IMG/VR virus record: IMGVR_UViG_3300023174_005338
Coordinates: 273,120-337,119 of that record
Direction: 5' to 3' (one strand)
From: a virus
Length of the DNA stretch: 64,000 bases
Shown here: positions 1 through 8,871 of the stretch, in pieces
Layout: every line of letters begins with the position of its first letter
Position numbering within the stretch: position 1 is the stretch's first letter
Position numbers and translations under genes: made by a program
The notes under the pieces: model-generated
What the model was told of the DNA's origin: nothing
Database searches by the model: none
Seen by the model: the letters and a program-made list of their open reading frames with translations, nothing else

Positions 1-444
1 AAAAACATCAACTACATCGGCAACTGCTTTCCGCACAACTATGCCGATGCCGGTGATTCAGCACGTGGCATGATGACTCTGACGTGGGGTCAAGAACCTG
101 TGTTCCATGCCTGGCCCGGGCAACCTCTTTACAAGGTGCTGAAACTCAGCCAGGTCATAGATTCAGCTCCGTCATTGTTGGCCGCCAACATGCATGTGCG
201 TGTGGAACTGGACATTGATATTTCGTATGAAGAAGCCAATTTCATCAAAGACACCTTTGTCAAGGATTACGATCTCAGAGAGATGGCCTTGATTCCAGTA
301 AAGAGCACCGCAGTAGATGCCGACATGGCGCCCGGAGAAGTCAAATTCGAAAGTGTGGATCAGATTGTAACCGATCAGATCACCAACATTGAAAGCGAAT
401 TCTATGATCCTAAATTATTGTTGAGGATATATCAATCCTTATAA
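1..444 (+). CDS. 47: gp47-like recombination nuclease subunit (C-terminal part)
   Basis: The reading frame is open from base 1, so the gene starts outside the window; 147 codons remain. In T4-like phages gp47 is the SbcD/Mre11-type nuclease that pairs with the Rad50-like gp46 in recombination-dependent replication and host DNA degradation. The visible part begins with NYIGNCFPHNYADAGDSARG, which resembles the end of the phosphoesterase domain (YIG...G.A.D.RG) followed by the small C-terminal capping domain. The phosphoesterase metal ligands lie upstream and cannot be seen. Identity rests on this pattern plus the gp46 gene 4.3 kb downstream on the same strand; in T4 the two are near neighbours, here a cassette separates them. 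Confidence 0.75.
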   Translation, partial: KNINYIGNCFPHNYADAGDSARGMMTLTWGQEPVFHAWPGQPLYKVLKLSQVIDSAPSLLAANMHVRVELDIDISYEEANFIKDTFVKDYDLREMALIPVKSTAVDADMAPGEVKFESVDQIVTDQITNIESEFYDPKLLLRIYQSL

Positions 445-447
445 ATA
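440..447 (+). promoter_or_regulatory. Late promoter of the metabolic cassette
   Basis: TATAAATA is the exact T4 late-promoter consensus. It overlaps the stop codon of gene 47 and lies 38 bases before the start of the ANL-ligase gene. No Shine-Dalgarno sequence is evident before that start. If active, it would let the cassette be expressed late, independently of the recombination genes around it. Confidence 0.5.
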
Positions 448-485
448 TTGGATTGTTGTAGCATCTTACATTTATTTTCATTACT

Positions 486-2012
486 ATGAGTCAACAAGTT
501 CTCTCTCGGCATCTTTTGTGTCCCGATTTGAAATTTTATCAACACAATTTCGACACCAACCAAACTGCGGTCTTTGACTACGACCAGTTCAGCCGCATGG
601 TAGATTATTGGAAATTTATGTTGGTTGAAAAATACAATGTTCAACACGGGCAAACCGTGATGATTGAATTTAATCTCACCAACATATACTATTTTACAGC
701 TATTTTTGCGGCCTGGGAACTGGGTCTCGTGCTCATAGTTGATTGGATTCATGCGTACAGCGAACAGGAATGTCACGGAAAAAGTTTTACCATACACGGA
801 CAAATAGATCACGCCATAGTTTACAGTGAACAACTAAATCCCAACAACAAGAAATTTTATCTAGAATGGGATGTGTATCGCACTCGTTTACACTGTCGTA
901 ATGTCATAACCGAAATAGATTTTAATAATTATGAAATTAAGGATCACAGTAAATTTGCGGAAATAGCTGAAACCGTTTACGCCAGGCCTGACAGCCAGGC
1001 CATTTGGACCGCAACCAGTGGTAGCACAGGCGATCCTAAACAACAACGCATAGACCACAGATCAGTGTTTCTACAGGCCAAACGATTAATCAATCACCTG
1101 AATTTTAAACCAGAGCAATCGGTACTTCATACTCACAATGTGCATCACGGTGCTAGTGCTTGCTATCATTTTTTACCCAGTCTGATGACTTCTACCAACC
1201 ATTATGTTATGAATTACGAGCATTGGAACGACACTCACAACAAACAATTGGCAGACTTTATTGAAAGTAGAAAGATAAACAAAATATTTTTGTACACGCC
1301 CGACAAGATCTTGGCTTATCTAAACTCTACTGATCCACTCCAGCATGAAGTAGAAATTACTACCTTGTATTTTTGCACCAAAGAAATTGTAAATTTAGCC
1401 AAAGAAAAAAATATCAAAGGCATTTATAGTGTGTTTGGTGACACAACCATTGCCTATGGGTTTTTGGTCAAGGTCGTAGATTTGCAACAGTCGTTAAACA
1501 CTTATGAACCCAGTTGTATAGGACCGCAACTAGACGATTTTTTTGATTTCAAGATTCAAGATGGTCATCTTTACATTCGAAGCAGTGGCTTAGGCAAAAC
1601 AGAGTGGCAGACCAGTAAAGACAATTTTGAACTGAAAGATAACAAATATTATTTCCTAGGGCGCGGAACCGATTACCGCATCAACGATGAATGGATCAAT
1701 CACAACGAAATTGAAAGCAGGATCAATGAACTGTTTACTATCGATCAAAAAGAAGGTGCTACCATAGTAATTGACAACGAAGAACAACAGGTTTATTTGG
1801 CTATATGGATTGAAAATCCGCAAGCCGAACTTGAATTTGATCGTTGGTTAGCACAACGTTATAAAACTGTGACTATCACAAAACGAGCACGAGACTTAAA
1901 CAAAAACGAATTCCTAGGGTCGAGAAAAGTCAGTCGGCAACTATTAAAGGAATACTTTAGATCCAAAGTCCAACGAATTTACAGTTTCACTGATCCTTGG
2001 ATATTATCTTAA
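486..2012 (+). CDS. ANL-superfamily adenylating enzyme (acyl/aryl-CoA ligase-like)
   Basis: A 508-residue AMP-forming ligase. The nucleotide-binding signature TSGSTGDPK lies near residues 176-184. Later motifs are recognisable: an A5-like FGDTT, an A7/A8 region GRGTDYRINDEWINHNEIE, and a C-terminal GSRKVSRQLL matching the A10 block, whose lysine (about residue 481) would catalyse adenylate formation. The enzyme therefore looks complete. Family members activate carboxylic acids as acyl-AMP and pass them to CoA or a carrier; the substrate cannot be read here. No carrier-protein domain is attached. It is first in a same-strand cassette with a solute-binding protein and a Rieske oxygenase, so an aromatic or related acid is a reasonable but unproven substrate. 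Highly unusual cargo for a T4-like phage. Confidence 0.8.
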   Translation: MSQQVLSRHLLCPDLKFYQHNFDTNQTAVFDYDQFSRMVDYWKFMLVEKYNVQHGQTVMIEFNLTNIYYFTAIFAAWELGLVLIVDWIHAYSEQECHGKSFTIHGQIDHAIVYSEQLNPNNKKFYLEWDVYRTRLHCRNVITEIDFNNYEIKDHSKFAEIAETVYARPDSQAIWTATSGSTGDPKQQRIDHRSVFLQAKRLINHLNFKPEQSVLHTHNVHHGASACYHFLPSLMTSTNHYVMNYEHWNDTHNKQLADFIESRKINKIFLYTPDKILAYLNSTDPLQHEVEITTLYFCTKEIVNLAKEKNIKGIYSVFGDTTIAYGFLVKVVDLQQSLNTYEPSCIGPQLDDFFDFKIQDGHLYIRSSGLGKTEWQTSKDNFELKDNKYYFLGRGTDYRINDEWINHNEIESRINELFTIDQKEGATIVIDNEEQQVYLAIWIENPQAELEFDRWLAQRYKTVTITKRARDLNKNEFLGSRKVSRQLLKEYFRSKVQRIYSFTDPWILS

Positions 2013-2047
2013 AATTATGAATACATTTGTTATCAAGGAAATTTAAA

Positions 2048-3025
2048 ATGACATTTATTACCAAAATTTTTGACGGCTCACAATCAGTAATAAAATTGTT
2101 GCTTGCAATTTTGTTGACGTGGGCAATTCCATCGTGGTCTGCAACATATCCATCGAAACCAGTGAAAATTATCATCAGCTTGCCGATAGGCAGTGGTCCA
2201 GATGCACAATTACGACGGGTGGCAGAAATACTGTCAGAAAAATGGAACCAACCTGTGGTTGTAGAAAATCGACCCGGAGCATCTGGAATAGTGGCCATGA
2301 ATCAAGTGGTAAATGAACCTGCCGATGGATATACATTAGGACTGTTTCACATGGGAGATATTGTGCCATTTCCTATTTTATACAACAACAACAAAGCTCT
2401 AGACAACCTAGTAGTACTGGCTCCATTTTTTACAGCAGACATGGCATTGTTTGTTAGCACCGGTGTTAAAAATCTTGAAGAGCTCAAACAACTTTTAAAA
2501 AGAAATCCCAATTATGGTTCCTGGGGAATAGGAAGCATACAGCATGTTGTCGGTGCAGAGTTTGTTAGTTTGTATGTTGATAATGCCACCCATATTCCTT
2601 ATCGAGACGGTAACTTGTTCACCGATGTAAGCACCAAAACATTGAGCTTTGGTTTTACTAGTCTGGGGTCTGGCAATGCTATGTATCGTGCTAACAAGAT
2701 TCATTATTTGGCCATTGCTACTGACCAACGGCACAAACAATTTCCTGATGTCCCGACTATTAGAGAACTAACTGGTAAAAAAATTGTGGCTCAGAGCTGG
2801 CTAGCATTCTTCGTAAAAAAAGGAATTCCTGATCCAGTCCGTCAACAAATAGAAAAAGATCTACGTGTAGCTATTGCAGATCAAAGAATGCAAGATTTTT
2901 TACTTGAAAATTATTTTATACCTCTCAACAACACAAGTTTAAATCAGTTTGTAAAACAAATTGAGCACGAACGTTCGGTTTACAAAAACAATCTTCAACG
3001 ACACAAAATCAGTCTTACGCAATGA
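2048..3025 (+). CDS. Bug/TctC-family periplasmic solute-binding protein
   Basis: 325 residues from the ATG at 2048, preceded by AAGGA at suitable distance; a TTG at 2027 is possible but less likely. Residues 1-30 form a signal peptide (hydrophobic LLLAILLTWAIP, then WSA). The mature N-terminus YPSKPVKIIISLPIG and the following VVENRPGASG are hallmarks of the Bug family, the extracytoplasmic binding proteins of tripartite tricarboxylate transporters, which bind carboxylates. No membrane subunits (TctA/TctB) are present, so it would have to serve a host transporter, much as phage-encoded PstS is thought to in cyanophages. Its stop overlaps the next start (ATGA), implying translational coupling. 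The family is greatly expanded in Burkholderiales, which hints at the host. Confidence 0.9.
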   Translation: MTFITKIFDGSQSVIKLLLAILLTWAIPSWSATYPSKPVKIIISLPIGSGPDAQLRRVAEILSEKWNQPVVVENRPGASGIVAMNQVVNEPADGYTLGLFHMGDIVPFPILYNNNKALDNLVVLAPFFTADMALFVSTGVKNLEELKQLLKRNPNYGSWGIGSIQHVVGAEFVSLYVDNATHIPYRDGNLFTDVSTKTLSFGFTSLGSGNAMYRANKIHYLAIATDQRHKQFPDVPTIRELTGKKIVAQSWLAFFVKKGIPDPVRQQIEKDLRVAIADQRMQDFLLENYFIPLNNTSLNQFVKQIEHERSVYKNNLQRHKISLTQ

Positions 3026-4290
3026 CCCATTACTGGCCCGATCAAAACACCAGCAGAATTCCCTATTGGGCCTATACCGACACTGATGTATATCAGCAAG
3101 AATTACAAAAAATTTGGTATGGACCGCATTGGTGTTATGTTGGGCTTGAATGCGAAATACCCAACACGAATGATTTCAAACTCGGCTGGGTAGGAGAGCG
3201 CGAAGTAATAGTTACTAGAGATCTAGATGGCATCCATGTGGTAGAAAATCGGTGCGCTCACAGAGGTGTTCGTTTTTGTCAAAAACAAACAGGAAATACC
3301 GAGAAATTTGTGTGTGCATATCATCAATGGAGGTACAATCTCAAGGGAGATCTTGTCAGTGTACCTTTTGAAAAAGGCGCACCCAAAAATGGAGAAATCT
3401 GTGGAGGCATGCCAGATAATTTTGACAAGCATAATCATGGGCTGGTAAAATTGCATGTGGCTGTTTTGCACGGAGTGATATTTGCCACGTTTGATGACAG
3501 TGTGTGTGGCATAGAACAATATTTAGGACCCGAAATACTGCCTTGGTTTGAAAGAACATTCAAAGGTCGGACACTGAAATTGCTAGGACATAATCGTCAA
3601 GAAATCAAAGGCAATTGGAAATTGATGATGGAAAACATCAAAGATCCTTATCACCCTGGTTTATTGCACACATGGTTTGTGACTTTTGGTTTGTTCAGGG
3701 CCGATCAATCCACAAGCAGAATGGTCATTGACAAAGAAGGACGTCATGCAGTCATGTTGAATCGTCGCAATCGTGGAATAGCCAACGAAGTAACCAAAGG
3801 AGTTGAATCGTTCAAGCCCAAAATGCAGTTGAACGATACTAGATTATTAGACATAGTCGAAGAGCCATGGTGGACTGTGCCAGACCCCAATGACCCCAAA
3901 CAACCCATCAACCCTACAAACTGCATGCAAACAATTTTTCCTAGCCTGATAATTCAACAACAGATCAACAGCATGAGCACACGACATATTGTGCCTCGCG
4001 GTCCCGGGTGTTTTGAATTTACCTGGACCCATTTTGCTTTTTCAGACGACTCAGAGGACATGATTCAACGCAGACTTAGACAAGCAAATCTTTTTGGACC
4101 AGCCGGATTTGTCAGCGCCGACGATGGTGAAGTGTTGGAGTTATCACAGCAAGGTTTTAATCAATGGCGCACAGATGGAGAATTACTGGTAGAATTAGGT
4201 GGGCCAGATTCTGGACAAACTACCGAGCACATGGTCACAGAAACTCTGATCAGGGGCATGTATAGATACTACAGAAAAATAATGGCATGA
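3022..4290 (+). CDS. Rieske aromatic-ring-hydroxylating oxygenase, alpha subunit
   Basis: 422 residues. The Rieske [2Fe-2S] ligands are C78-A-H80 and C98-A-Y-H101 (spacing as in ring-hydroxylating oxygenases). The catalytic domain carries NWKLMMENIKDPYHPGLLH: D208, H211 and H216 are the bridging aspartate and two iron ligands, and an acidic SADDGE near residue 366 could supply the carboxylate ligand. Length and the small partner gene resemble salicylate 5-hydroxylase-type enzymes (NagG/NagH) within the anthranilate/salicylate group; the exact substrate is inference. All metal ligands are intact. Ferredoxin and reductase are not in the window and would come from the host or elsewhere. It overlaps its neighbours by four bases at both ends. 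Confidence 0.92.
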   Translation: MTHYWPDQNTSRIPYWAYTDTDVYQQELQKIWYGPHWCYVGLECEIPNTNDFKLGWVGEREVIVTRDLDGIHVVENRCAHRGVRFCQKQTGNTEKFVCAYHQWRYNLKGDLVSVPFEKGAPKNGEICGGMPDNFDKHNHGLVKLHVAVLHGVIFATFDDSVCGIEQYLGPEILPWFERTFKGRTLKLLGHNRQEIKGNWKLMMENIKDPYHPGLLHTWFVTFGLFRADQSTSRMVIDKEGRHAVMLNRRNRGIANEVTKGVESFKPKMQLNDTRLLDIVEEPWWTVPDPNDPKQPINPTNCMQTIFPSLIIQQQINSMSTRHIVPRGPGCFEFTWTHFAFSDDSEDMIQRRLRQANLFGPAGFVSADDGEVLELSQQGFNQWRTDGELLVELGGPDSGQTTEHMVTETLIRGMYRYYRKIMA

Positions 4291-4760
4291 AGGATCTGGA
4301 ACTTAAATTTCAAATTGATCAACTAAATGCCTGCTATGGCGATGCGTTGGATCGACATGATTACAACACATGGATGAATTTTTTTGAAGAAGAATGTTTG
4401 TATTTGGTGCAAAGTCGAGAAAATTTTGATCGCAACTTGCCTCTTGCATTGATACGATTGGAAAGCCATCGTATGATGCAAGATCGAGTTTATGGTTGCA
4501 TGGACACAATTTTTCATCAAGAATATTATCAGCGTCATATAATTTCAGGTTGTGTGATTAGCAAAATAGAAAATAACAAAATTTTTACTAGAACAAATTA
4601 CACAGTTTTTAGAACCAAACCCACAGAATCTTCAGAAGTATTCAATGTTGGGTGCTATCACGATGTCTGGTCGCAACGACACACCGGGCCAAAGTTGGCT
4701 GAACGCAAATGTGTTTACGACAGCGAAATGATTTTGAATGCGTTAATATATCCAATTTAA
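4287..4760 (+). CDS. Ring-hydroxylating oxygenase, beta subunit
   Basis: 157 residues, starting inside the stop codon of the alpha-subunit gene (ATGA). The N-terminal pattern (acidic/aromatic YGDALDRHDYNTWMNFFEEE) and the central arginine- and tyrosine-rich segment match the NTF2/SnoaL-like beta subunits that pair with Rieske alpha subunits in alpha3beta3 oxygenases. The beta subunit is structural and contributes to substrate selection. Immediate coupling to a complete alpha subunit supports the call more strongly than the sequence alone. It is the last gene of the cassette; gp46 follows after 37 bases. Confidence 0.85.
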   Translation: MKDLELKFQIDQLNACYGDALDRHDYNTWMNFFEEECLYLVQSRENFDRNLPLALIRLESHRMMQDRVYGCMDTIFHQEYYQRHIISGCVISKIENNKIFTRTNYTVFRTKPTESSEVFNVGCYHDVWSQRHTGPKLAERKCVYDSEMILNALIYPI

Positions 4761-4797: not shown

Positions 4798-6561
4798 ATG
4801 ATTCAAATAAAAAATCTCACAGTAAAAAACTTTATGAGCGTGGGCAACGCCACGCAAGGCATCGACTTTGATCGACGCGACTTGACACTTGTGTTGGGCG
4901 AGAACTTGGATCTTGGTGGCGACGGAAGCCGCAACGGCACAGGTAAAACTACTATAATCAATGCTCTTAGCTACAGCTTGTATGGGCAAGCATTAAGTAA
5001 CATCCGCAAGGACAACTTAGTCAACAAAACCAACAACAAAAACATGTTGGTCAGTTTGGATTTCAGTGTGGACGGCAAAGATTACCGGATTGAACGAGGC
5101 CGTAAACCCAACCTGCTGAGATTCTTTGTAAACAATCAAGAGCAAGTGGTCACAGACGAAGCACAAGGCGACAGCCGAGAAACACAGGATGCCATTGAAC
5201 ATACCTTGGGCCTCAGTCACGACATGTTCAAACACATTCTGGCACTCAACACTTACACAGAACCGTTTCTGAGTCTCAAAGCCACAGATCAAAGAACCAT
5301 CATTGAACAACTCCTGGGCATAACCATGCTGAGCGAGCGTGCCGATCGAATCAAAGAACACAACAGATCCACCAAAGAAGCCATACAGCAAGAAGAATTC
5401 CGTATTCGAGCTGTTCAAGAAGCCAATAAAAGGATAGAAGAACAGATTGAGGCTTTACGACGTAGACAGACATTATGGGTGACTAAACATGAAGAAGAGA
5501 TTACCAAACTCGAAACCGCGCTCGAAGAACTCAAAAAGATTGACATTGAAGCCGAGATTGCGGCCCACAAGGCGCACAAAGTATGGGATCAGAAGCGCAA
5601 GGACCTTAACGACCTGGCTGGACAGATCTCCCGCACGAAGCTTGATAAGGACCGCGAGAACAAAAGCATTGAGAAGCTTGGCAAGGAGATTGCGACACTT
5701 GAAGATCACACATGTCACACTTGCGGGCAGGCTTTCCACGACCATAAGCACCAACAGGTCCTGGCGGGTAAGCAGGCTGATCTGGCAAGAGCGCGAGAAG
5801 CGTGCCAAGAACATACACAGCTCCTTTCAGAACTCGAGACTGCCCACACAGCCTTGGGCACGTTAGGGCGACCACCTGCTATGTTCTATGATAGTGAAGA
5901 GGATGCCATACAACATCGTAGCAGCATGGCTGCCTTGCAAACTCAATTGACAAACAAACAGGCCGAAACAGATCCCTACGGCGAGCAGATAGCGGACATG
6001 CAAGGTCAGGCTTTGCAGGTAGTAAGCTATGACACACTCAATGAGCTGACCAGACTTCAGGAACATCAAGACTTCTTGCTCAAACTTTTGACCAGCAAGG
6101 ATTCATTCATACGCAAAAAAATCATTGAACAGAATTTGAGTTATTTGAATGCCAGACTCACACACTACCTGGATAGGATTGGCCTGCCGCATACCGTGGT
6201 GTTCCAGAACGATTTGACTGTGAGCATCGAGGAGCTGGGTCGTGAGCTGGACTTTGACAATTTGAGTCGTGGCGAACGCAACAGATTGATCTTGAGCATG
6301 AGCTGGGCCTTTCGTGATGTGTTTGAAAGCCTATACCAGCCCATCAATGTGCTGTTCATAGACGAAATGATTGATTCGGGCCTGGACACACAGGGTGTAG
6401 AAAATGCTCTTGCGTTGCTGAAGCACATGAGCCGCGAACGGCACAAGAGTATTTGGTTGGTCAGCCACAGAGATGAGCTAGCCGGAAGAGTTGAAAACAT
6501 ACTCCGAGTGGTCAAAGAAGGCGGCTTTACCAGTTACAACACGGATGTAGAAATTGCGTAG
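4798..6561 (+). CDS. 46: gp46-like recombination endonuclease subunit (Rad50/SbcC-like ATPase)
   Basis: 587 residues with SMC-type architecture: Walker A GTGKTT (K50) in the N-terminal ATPase lobe, a coiled-coil region around residues 190-430 interrupted by the zinc-hook CHTC (C306, C309), and a C-terminal lobe with signature LSRGERNRL and Walker B VLFIDEMIDSG (D522/E523). In T4, gp46 with gp47 resects DNA ends for recombination-dependent replication and packaging, and degrades host DNA. Length is close to T4 gp46. It lies downstream of the metabolic cassette instead of next to gp47. Its stop overlaps the following radical SAM gene. Confidence 0.95.
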   Translation: MIQIKNLTVKNFMSVGNATQGIDFDRRDLTLVLGENLDLGGDGSRNGTGKTTIINALSYSLYGQALSNIRKDNLVNKTNNKNMLVSLDFSVDGKDYRIERGRKPNLLRFFVNNQEQVVTDEAQGDSRETQDAIEHTLGLSHDMFKHILALNTYTEPFLSLKATDQRTIIEQLLGITMLSERADRIKEHNRSTKEAIQQEEFRIRAVQEANKRIEEQIEALRRRQTLWVTKHEEEITKLETALEELKKIDIEAEIAAHKAHKVWDQKRKDLNDLAGQISRTKLDKDRENKSIEKLGKEIATLEDHTCHTCGQAFHDHKHQQVLAGKQADLARAREACQEHTQLLSELETAHTALGTLGRPPAMFYDSEEDAIQHRSSMAALQTQLTNKQAETDPYGEQIADMQGQALQVVSYDTLNELTRLQEHQDFLLKLLTSKDSFIRKKIIEQNLSYLNARLTHYLDRIGLPHTVVFQNDLTVSIEELGRELDFDNLSRGERNRLILSMSWAFRDVFESLYQPINVLFIDEMIDSGLDTQGVENALALLKHMSRERHKSIWLVSHRDELAGRVENILRVVKEGGFTSYNTDVEIA

Positions 6562-7420
6562 AATACGAGTCTTACACATTGAACCCACCGACGTTTGTCA
6601 GGCTGCATGCCCGTTGTGTGCCCGAGAGACTGACCCAAACTTTAATAAAAGTTTAAAGCATCATCTCAGAGTAGAGCACATACAAAAACATTTTTCAGAA
6701 CAAGTAATTTCCAAACTGGATAAAATGTTCATGTGTGGCAATTATGGTGATCCGGCTGCAGGCTACTATACCATGGACATCTACAACCACTTTAGAAAAG
6801 TCAATCCAGAAATTGTGTTGGGTATGAACACCAATGGTGCTGTGCAAAGCACGTTCTTTTGGCATGCGTTGGGACGATTGTTCAATCAGCCCAAAGATTA
6901 TTGTGTGTTTAGCATAGACGGATTAGAGGATACCAATCACGTTTATCGTAAAAATGTCAATTGGGCCAAGCTAATGAGCAACGTTCAAGCCTACATTGCC
7001 GCAGGTGGAAGTGCCCATTGGGACATGCTGGTGTACAAACACAATCAACATCAAGTGGATGCTTGCCAGCAACTGGCTCGTGACATGGGATTCAAGTGGT
7101 TCCGTGCCAAGGTCAGCAAGCGTGGATTCACTGATCATTTAGAATTTCCCATCGGGTGGCAACCGCCTGCGGTCAAGGCGGGGCCCATCAAATGCCATGT
7201 GATTAATGAAAAAAGCATGTACATTGATGCGCAAGGTCGTGCCAGTGCCTGTTGCTGGCTTGGTGCCACGCAACAAGATTTTGTCAAAGATGATTTGGCA
7301 ACTGTAAAATTAACTTGGAAAACAGACACACCCAATCCGGTGTGTGTCAGTGCTTGTTCCACAAACAAAAATAAAACCGTATTCCAAGACCAATGGCAAC
7401 GCGAGGTACAACTGTGTTAG
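6554..7420 (+). CDS. Radical SAM protein (first of a tandem pair)
   Basis: 288 residues beginning at TTG; an in-frame stop lies two codons upstream and the next ATG falls after the cluster motif, so TTG is forced. The motif CQAACPLC (CX3CX2C) binds the [4Fe-4S] cluster that cleaves S-adenosylmethionine. A second cysteine-rich part at the C-terminus (MYIDAQGRASACCW, then CVSACS) looks like a SPASM/twitch auxiliary-cluster domain. Such proteins modify peptides or small molecules; the substrate is unknown. The start overlaps the end of gp46 by eight bases and the end overlaps the next radical SAM gene by 28 bases, so the three are probably co-translated. Confidence 0.8.
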   Translation: MRRIRVLHIEPTDVCQAACPLCARETDPNFNKSLKHHLRVEHIQKHFSEQVISKLDKMFMCGNYGDPAAGYYTMDIYNHFRKVNPEIVLGMNTNGAVQSTFFWHALGRLFNQPKDYCVFSIDGLEDTNHVYRKNVNWAKLMSNVQAYIAAGGSAHWDMLVYKHNQHQVDACQQLARDMGFKWFRAKVSKRGFTDHLEFPIGWQPPAVKAGPIKCHVINEKSMYIDAQGRASACCWLGATQQDFVKDDLATVKLTWKTDTPNPVCVSACSTNKNKTVFQDQWQREVQLC

Positions 7421-8424
7421 CCACCTGGCATTTTCATATCGAAATCAGTTCAAAGTGTACCCTGCGTTGCCCACGCTGTGCCAGACAAGAGGTTCCCGAC
7501 AGTTTAGTAAACACTGAACTGGATTTAGAATTTTTTAAAAGAAACTTTACCGCAGAGTTTGTTCTTGACAATGTAGAAAAGATCACATTTTGTGGTGACG
7601 ACGGTGATCCTATCTATGCTCACGACCTTATACCAGTGATTCAATACATCAAGTCAATCAAACCTGTTGAGATTGTAGTTGTCACAAATGGATCACACAA
7701 GAAACCAGAATGGTGGCGTGAACTTGGTGGCGTGCTTAGTGAGCAAGATACTGTACACTTTAGCATCGACGGTTGGGACTACCCAAGCAACAATCTGTAT
7801 CGTGTCAACAGTGATTTCAACAGTATTGTCGACGGAATCACTGCACTACGATCAACCTCTGAGTGCCACCTTGTGTGGGCTGCCATTGTCTTTGGGTTCA
7901 ATGAACACCAACTGGGCGCTATGAAAAATCATGCACGTTTGCTAGATATGGATGTATTTCAACTTACCAAGAGCACCAAGTTTGGCTCCGTTTATCTCTC
8001 CTACGGTCCAATCGATGAGCTAGAGCCCAGCCGGCCGTTTGTCAGCAGTTCACACAGATTTGAGAGAGATGTTACACCGATAAGCTCGCGTGGACTCAAT
8101 TCACAGACAAACACCAAGAACATACAATTATACAAATCTGCTGTAGAGATCAACGGTGTAAAACCCCTGTGTGAAATTGGCAACAAAGGACTTTATATTG
8201 ACGCCCAAGGTAGATTATTCCCTTGCTGTTGGGTAGCAAACCGCTACAGTCACAATTCAGAATGGAAAGCTATTGCTAACAAATTTGATTTGAATCGTCG
8301 CACACTGGCCGACGCTGTAACTGACGATTTTTGGTCAACAACATTTAAAACCTTTGGGTGGCAAGAGTGCCAGACTAAGTGTGTAGCGAGCAGGGTAAAT
8401 GAAAAATATGCAACTGAGTGGTAA
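7393..8424 (+). CDS. Radical SAM protein (second of a tandem pair)
   Basis: 343 residues. The N-terminal CTLRCPRC is a radical SAM CX3CX2C motif. The C-terminal half contains LYIDAQGRLFPCCW, closely matching the equivalent segment of the preceding gene, so the two are probably diverged duplicates with SPASM/twitch-type auxiliary sites. The middle part, including FCGDDGDPIYAHDLIPVIQYI and FSIDGWD, follows the usual radical SAM barrel pattern. It overlaps the upstream gene by 28 bases. No candidate peptide substrate with a clear leader was recognised nearby. Function is unassigned beyond the enzyme class. Confidence 0.8.
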   Translation: MATRGTTVLATWHFHIEISSKCTLRCPRCARQEVPDSLVNTELDLEFFKRNFTAEFVLDNVEKITFCGDDGDPIYAHDLIPVIQYIKSIKPVEIVVVTNGSHKKPEWWRELGGVLSEQDTVHFSIDGWDYPSNNLYRVNSDFNSIVDGITALRSTSECHLVWAAIVFGFNEHQLGAMKNHARLLDMDVFQLTKSTKFGSVYLSYGPIDELEPSRPFVSSSHRFERDVTPISSRGLNSQTNTKNIQLYKSAVEINGVKPLCEIGNKGLYIDAQGRLFPCCWVANRYSHNSEWKAIANKFDLNRRTLADAVTDDFWSTTFKTFGWQECQTKCVASRVNEKYATEW

Positions 8425-8442
8425 AATGATAAATTATAGTCC

Positions 8443-8871
8443 ATGGTATGGCTGTACGAAAACACTCCGATTGAACAACTACCCGAAGACTGTGTTGGTT
8501 TTGTTTATTTGATCACAAATAACGTTACCGGCAGAAAGTACATTGGAAAAAAATTAGCAAAGTTTAGCAAGACCTCATATCGAGTAGTAAAATTAAAGAA
8601 CGGCTACAAGAAACGTAAAAAGATAAGAAGCAAAATAGATTCAGACTGGCAACTATACTATGGCAGCAACGATCAACTCAACCGAGACATTGCAGAGCTG
8701 GGCTCAGACAACTTCACAAGAGAAATATTGTTTTATTGCCGATCAAAAGCAGAATGCAGTTATGTTGAAGCACGCGAACAATTCAATCATAAAGTATTGG
8801 AATCAGATGACTACTACAATGGACAGATTGTTTGCCGTATACACGGAAGTCATATAAAAAACAAAATTTAA
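8443..8871 (+). CDS. GIY-YIG-type endonuclease (Seg-like)
   Basis: 142 residues. GFVYLITNNVTGRKYIGKK is a GIY-YIG nuclease signature in the form FVY-X10-KYIG, followed by a lysine/arginine-rich stretch and DNFTREIL, typical of the end of the fold. T4-like phages carry many freestanding homing endonucleases of this class, and some short versions are conserved phage nucleases of unknown role. It lies just upstream of the 395-base gene-free region that looks like a structured RNA, which could mean a former intron/nuclease pair; that link is speculative. No second DNA-binding module is visible. Confidence 0.7.
   Translation: MVWLYENTPIEQLPEDCVGFVYLITNNVTGRKYIGKKLAKFSKTSYRVVKLKNGYKKRKKIRSKIDSDWQLYYGSNDQLNRDIAELGSDNFTREILFYCRSKAECSYVEAREQFNHKVLESDDYYNGQIVCRIHGSHIKNKI

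Follow-up and report, generated by a model that had tools for sequence, protein, structure and literature searches.

The stretch analysed here (the window) comprises the final 64 kb of an IMG/VR virus record 337,119 bases long (G000:C1:273120-337119). Near its start, four genes lie between gp47 and gp46 and are read on their strand: a putative ligase of the ANL superfamily, a TctC/Bug-type solute-binding protein, and the alpha and beta subunits of a predicted Rieske oxygenase. The initial annotation had described this same-strand arrangement, and the open reading frames (ORFs), their plus-strand orientation, their intactness and both flanks were all confirmed.

1-444, + strand: 3' part of gp47 (SbcD-like nuclease), the left wall of the slot; a full gene is L008:1550-2563, 337 amino acids (aa)
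486-2012, + strand: ANL-superfamily adenylating enzyme, 508 aa; AMP-binding PF00501, 43 bits
2027-3025, + strand: TctC/Bug periplasmic solute-binding protein, 332 aa from TTG; PF03401, 134 bits against a cut-off of 27
3022-4290, + strand: Rieske non-heme iron oxygenase alpha, NagG type, 422 aa; Ring_hydroxyl_A 66 bits, Rieske 53 bits
4287-4760, + strand: Rieske oxygenase beta, NagH type, 157 aa; Ring_hydroxyl_B PF00866, 50 bits
4798-6561, + strand: gp46 (SbcC-like ATPase); PHROG 77, 3e-100; the right wall of the slot

The Pfam matches of all four cargo proteins exceeded their cut-offs, and the enzymatic roles discussed below are putative assignments from family membership. The ATGA overlaps previously noted among the last three genes were seen at TctC/alpha and alpha/beta; the ligase and TctC genes are separated by a 14-bp gap and do not overlap in this way. 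A better start for TctC is ATG 2048 (residue 8 of the listed TTG 2027 frame), which is preceded by AAGGAA.

Besides this record, Rieske alpha-beta genes were found in three IMG/VR contigs (L002, L003 and L004), each from a different further metagenome and each with TctC-alpha-beta at the same gp47/gp46 junction. The cassette is accordingly flanked by gp47 and gp46 in four contigs, the kind of position by which auxiliary metabolic genes are judged. Among the three, L004 alone also has the ANL gene. BLAST identities to the window were 69-71% for alpha, 46-54% for beta, 53-55% for TctC, 61-69% for gp46 and 75-77% for the gp47 C terminus, with 62% for the ANL protein of L004. A misassembled junction, or an oxygenase placed inside a bacterial locus, had been named in the initial annotation as outcomes that would speak against a phage cassette. 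Neither was found: the junction recurs as described, and in a tree of the four phage alphas and 80 bacterial Comamonadaceae-type alphas the phage sequences formed one clade (SH-aLRT 92; a quick method, with some long branches).

Composition and substitution patterns were examined for the same genes. The cassette has a GC content of 36-43%, and its GC at third codon positions (GC3) is 31-40% compared with 54-55% in the flanking phage genes. The cassettes of L002-L004 are similar in GC3 (31-42%), and the bacterial alpha-beta loci have a median GC of 66%. Such a composition is in keeping with genes that have long resided in phages and moved from one phage to another. Between the near-identical copies of L002 and L003, synonymous and non-synonymous changes numbered 33 and 3 in alpha, 22 and 4 in TctC, and 9 and 5 in beta (per-site ratios of 0.02, 0.05 and 0.13, respectively). 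This strong synonymous excess points to purifying selection on the cassette genes.

The alpha subunit retains the Rieske ligands C78, H80, C98 and H101, which are invariant, as are D208, H211 and H216, in 17 phage and bacterial alphas. The earlier list of catalytic residues stands for the Rieske ligands, for H211 and H216 and for the A3 motif and C-terminal Lys of the ligase, but not for D208, which is the bridging Asp and not an iron ligand. Alignment with TphA2, whose iron triad is H210/H215/D356 (PMC9060491), gave H211/H216/D368 as the triad of the phage protein. NagG was by far the best solved match for alpha (627 bits, compared with 337 for the next alpha), with 61% identity as against ~41% to TphA2, and the best PDB match of the beta profile was NagH (7c8z_B, 182 bits). 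The likeness to salicylate 5-hydroxylase that the initial annotation noted in the subunit sizes is borne out among solved structures. Equivalents of NagG M257, Q316 and S367 are conserved in the phage alpha, and Q316 and S367 are important in NagG. The carboxylate-binding Arg is kept too: R323, proposed to anchor the substrate carboxylate in NagG (PMC9060491), corresponds to R321, invariant in the 17 sequences. Because of R321 and the kinship with NagG, the substrate is likely an aryl carboxylate, with a salicylate-like compound as first candidate. Terephthalate specificity was rejected, as TphA2 S243, the second-carboxylate residue (PMC9060491), aligns with M245 (NagG M257) and TphC T155 is not conserved in TctC. 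AlphaFold modeling of alpha alone gave a predicted local distance difference test score (pLDDT) of 62 with a poor catalytic domain; a viral-structure search with this model returned two weak unnamed matches, which were not used.

The aligned phage TctC proteins carry signal peptides, as judged by eye, and have in common an LPxGSGPD motif and an invariant GSW loop. The Trp of this loop (W166) occupies the position of TphC Q150, a residue of the ligand pocket wall (PMC8556258). A scan for TctC yielded 19 loci, and those with visible flanks were in the gp47/gp46 slot, with the exception of L200/L201. There (L200/L201:6944-10661), the off-slot TctC relative belongs to a run of genes that also includes an epimerase-like ORF and one that starts with MTTIIIPFPPGGGGNHLKN.

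The putative ligase has the features of the ANL superfamily, namely an A3 motif TSGSTGDPK at residue 177 and the C-terminal catalytic Lys 481. Its AlphaFold model (pLDDT 80.7) had only ANL enzymes as best PDB matches. Scanning IMG/VR with an ANL profile identified 16 loci, all in the gp47/gp46 slot where flanks were visible, and the gene usually stood beside TctC; the orders seen were ANL-TctC, TctC-ANL, TctC-ANL-ANL, ANL-TctC-ANL and ANL alone. In seven bacterial genomes the same profile gave weak partial matches only, in six of the seven. Because all 16 ligase relatives occupy the slot and usually adjoin TctC, the base module consists of TctC and ANL, with the Rieske alpha-beta pair as a rare add-on.

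The junction itself was surveyed in 84 sequences: the window and L002-L004, plus the 80 nearest relatives by gp46 (L009-L088). It was empty in 22, filled in 60 and not judgeable in two. At most empty junctions the gp47 stop overlaps the gp46 start as ATGA; filled slots hold from 0.5 to more than 4 kb, and in many of them the gp47 stop shares such an ATGA with the start of the leading cargo ORF. Among the cargo are radical-SAM/SPASM, sulfotransferase, epimerase, UDP-glucose dehydrogenase, short-chain dehydrogenase/reductase (SDR) and methyltransferase genes, together with DUF6071, GIY-YIG and other genes without known function. On the gp46 tree there were at least 19 changes of occupancy, six of the ANL label and three of the alpha label. 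No alpha or beta was found among the 80 gp46 relatives, though the nearest share 95% gp46 identity with the window. The gp47/gp46 junction is therefore a general cargo slot for metabolic genes that have been gained and lost repeatedly, newly described here. Two junctions also contain remnants of the walls between cargo blocks: L003:2597-2692 is a gp46-start fragment of 32 codons, and at L064:5820-6344 a gp46-start fragment of 42 codons continues in frame into 132 codons from the 3' part of gp47. These are fossils of recombination that stacked cargo. Some recurrent cargo families had no Pfam match in the representatives scanned (cluster C5 in L018, L023, L026 and L028, and clusters C1, C4 and C9).

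With moderate confidence, we favor the explanation that the four genes constitute an auxiliary metabolic cassette, carried in a swappable slot by a giant T4-like phage of freshwater type, in which TctC captures an acid, alpha-beta hydroxylates an aryl carboxylate and the ANL enzyme activates an acid. The cassette sits between gp47 and gp46, in the same reading direction. In the periplasm, secreted TctC would catch a carboxylic acid and pass it to host permeases of the TctA/TctB type. Such host import would resemble the arrangement in Comamonas, where TphC and its permease are also encoded apart and the tpiBA permease genes form an operon separate from tphC (PMC8556258). Alpha-beta, together with a host ferredoxin and reductase, would then hydroxylate an aryl carboxylate held by R321, and the ANL enzyme would adenylate the same or a related acid, probably as a CoA ligase. 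We infer the use of host partners, the substrate and the benefit during infection; the product of the ANL enzyme and one substrate common to it and the oxygenase are the least certain parts. As oxygenase, binding-protein and ligase genes lie where related phages swap metabolic genes, the phage probably reshapes the aromatic-acid metabolism of its host during infection. The auxiliary metabolic module envisaged in the initial annotation thus survives as a genuine phage-borne cassette with an oxygenase nearest salicylate 5-hydroxylase, minus TATAAATA as a promoter and D208 as an iron ligand. More tentatively, TctC plus ANL might be a phage-specific module for acid capture and activation, found almost nowhere but in the gp47/gp46 slot of a single group of giant phages, to which a Rieske oxygenase was added; the result would be an aromatic-acid pathway that evolved in viruses and was put together in a cargo slot driven by recombination.

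Several observations weigh against this explanation. TctC lacks the TphC contact T155 (I171 instead) and has Trp at the position of TphC Q150. TctA was not found in the 337-kb record; TctB was not searched for, and a host copy is possible. The ligase shares 11-16% identity with its PDB matches, which include aryl-acid, amino-acid and acyl enzymes alike, so the fold does not resolve its substrate. Membership in AndAc/AndAd (anthranilate 1,2-dioxygenase, NF041684/NF041685) was rejected, the scores of 358 versus 750 and 115 versus 230 bits being below the equivalog cut-offs. Fer2, NAD_binding_1, Pyr_redox_2 and a second Rieske protein were not found in the 337-kb record, which is possibly a fragment; without a ferredoxin or reductase of its own, the oxygenase would depend wholly on host partners.

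The genes might instead serve tailoring rather than catabolism, the slot supplying a toolkit that modifies a small molecule, peptide or glycan: the ANL enzyme would activate an acid for transfer, the oxygenase hydroxylate and TctC supply the acid. The same-slot cargo, from radical-SAM/SPASM to methyltransferase genes, speaks for this, most loci have ANL and TctC without the oxygenase, and a DUF6071-like gene precedes ANL and TctC in L185/L186 and L195-L197. No carrier protein or acceptor was recognisable in the slot, however, and alpha-beta is nearest a catabolic enzyme. Moreover, Bug-alpha-beta occurs in bacteria as well: LysR, Bug, alpha and beta stand in a row at two loci of Burkholderiales that are related to the phage genes. 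We regard tailoring as unlikely.

Chemical interference, in which the phage would break down salicylate, anthranilate or a similar compound that serves the host as a signal or siderophore precursor, would agree with the NagG kinship and the conserved carboxylate Arg. It leaves the secreted TctC and its pairing with ANL unexplained, and no regulatory or siderophore genes were seen near the cassette, which makes it quite improbable. An equally slim chance is given to neutral or decaying hitch-hiker genes acquired by recombination at a permissive site. Rapid turnover of the slot and the fossil junctions of L003 and L064 are as this would predict, but the catalytic residues are all intact and synonymous changes are in strong excess. 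The separate phage clade and purifying selection make decay and chimerism alike unlikely. Chimeric assembly or bacterial contamination, suggested by a cassette GC below that of the flanks, was rejected as very improbable, given the junction repeated in three further metagenomes, the separate clade of phage alphas and a GC shift away from, not toward, the bacterial loci.

The initial annotation had pointed to a perfect TATAAATA, at 440-447 (+ strand), as opening the cassette. This motif occurs once in the 64 kb, where 0.89 copies were expected from dinucleotide shuffles, it overlaps the gp47 stop, and it is missing from most related junctions. For these reasons it provides no evidence of a promoter, and the late-promoter reading was rejected; a further single copy ahead of the L003 cassette is regarded as chance.

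Downstream of gp46, which is 52% identical to that of the Pseudomonas phage PA5oct group, additional cargo was seen.

6554-7420 and 7393-8424, + strand: tandem pair of radical-SAM genes, after gp46 and before the SegE-like gene
8443-8871, + strand: SegE-like GIY-YIG endonuclease gene; PF19835, 117 bits

The radical-SAM pair (6554-8424) marks a second variable cargo place, as it varies or is missing there in related phages; SegE lies directly 3' of gp46 in several of these (L003, L179, L183 and L188). The protein of 8443-8871 bears the PHROG 447 label NAD synthetase, which is likely wrong, since Pfam SegE_GIY-YIG (7e-34) and several homing-endonuclease PHROGs match it. In L004:11806-13881, L179, L185 and L191, gp46 is ~100 residues longer (691-693 versus 587 aa), with the surplus in the coiled-coil region.

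The initial annotation knew of no described T4-like phage with this gene set, and this held in our searches. No PHROG covers the four cargo proteins. Against 50,697 phage records, alpha had no match of 60% or more, all matches being below 30% identity and mostly to 'Acinetobacter phage MD-2021a' with bacterial-looking annotations, and ANL had no match. In the literature, with incomplete coverage, viral aromatic-degradation genes in general are reported, and neither this set nor this slot was found. Giant T4-like phages can carry a ring-hydroxylating oxygenase that is under selection and apparently functional, along with a capture protein of its own. The slot separates the genes for the two halves of a recombination nuclease, and metabolic genes have been acquired, lost and stacked there time and again, so phage metabolic genes can be sought simply by reading the gp47/gp46 gap. 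The cassette offers a testable case of phages changing aromatic-acid turnover.

Of the known systems, NagGH salicylate 5-hydroxylase (Ralstonia sp. U2, PDB 7C8Z) is similar in its alpha sequence, the Rieske and iron ligands, R323 and M257/Q316/S367, and in NagH as nearest beta. The phage set differs in being phage-borne, in a record without ferredoxin or reductase, and in adjoining TctC and ANL. The Comamonas tph operon for terephthalate has the same order of solute-binding protein, alpha and beta (tphC-tphA2-tphA3; PMC8556258), and its permease is encoded elsewhere; it differs in the low alpha identity, in S243, which is Met in the phage protein, and in the T155 contact absent from TctC. The nearest cellular relatives are stand-alone alpha-beta pairs of Comamonadaceae (Ramlibacter, Polaromonas and Hydrogenophaga; 64-69% alpha identity), which, unlike the phage cassette, are chromosomal, at several loci near mutL and dedA, and usually without an adjoining Bug and without ANL. 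This NagGH-like pair is conserved across Comamonadaceae (L089-L168), and by inspection no recognisable ferredoxin or reductase stood alongside it in the loci inspected. Virus-encoded hydrocarbon and aromatic degradation genes, e.g. vHYDEG and ndoC in Phycodnaviridae, are cited in passages of PMC13343209 and PMC12997795; here, a complete alpha-beta pair comes with both a solute-binding protein and a ligase, and the defined slot that contains them recurs across phages. Finally, insertion of homing endonucleases or cargo between T4-like core genes resembles the present case in its location amid conserved genes and in the GIY-YIG genes in and near the slot, whereas the slot cargo consists mostly of metabolic enzymes, often start-stop coupled to gp47, and is stacked, with fossils at the junctions.

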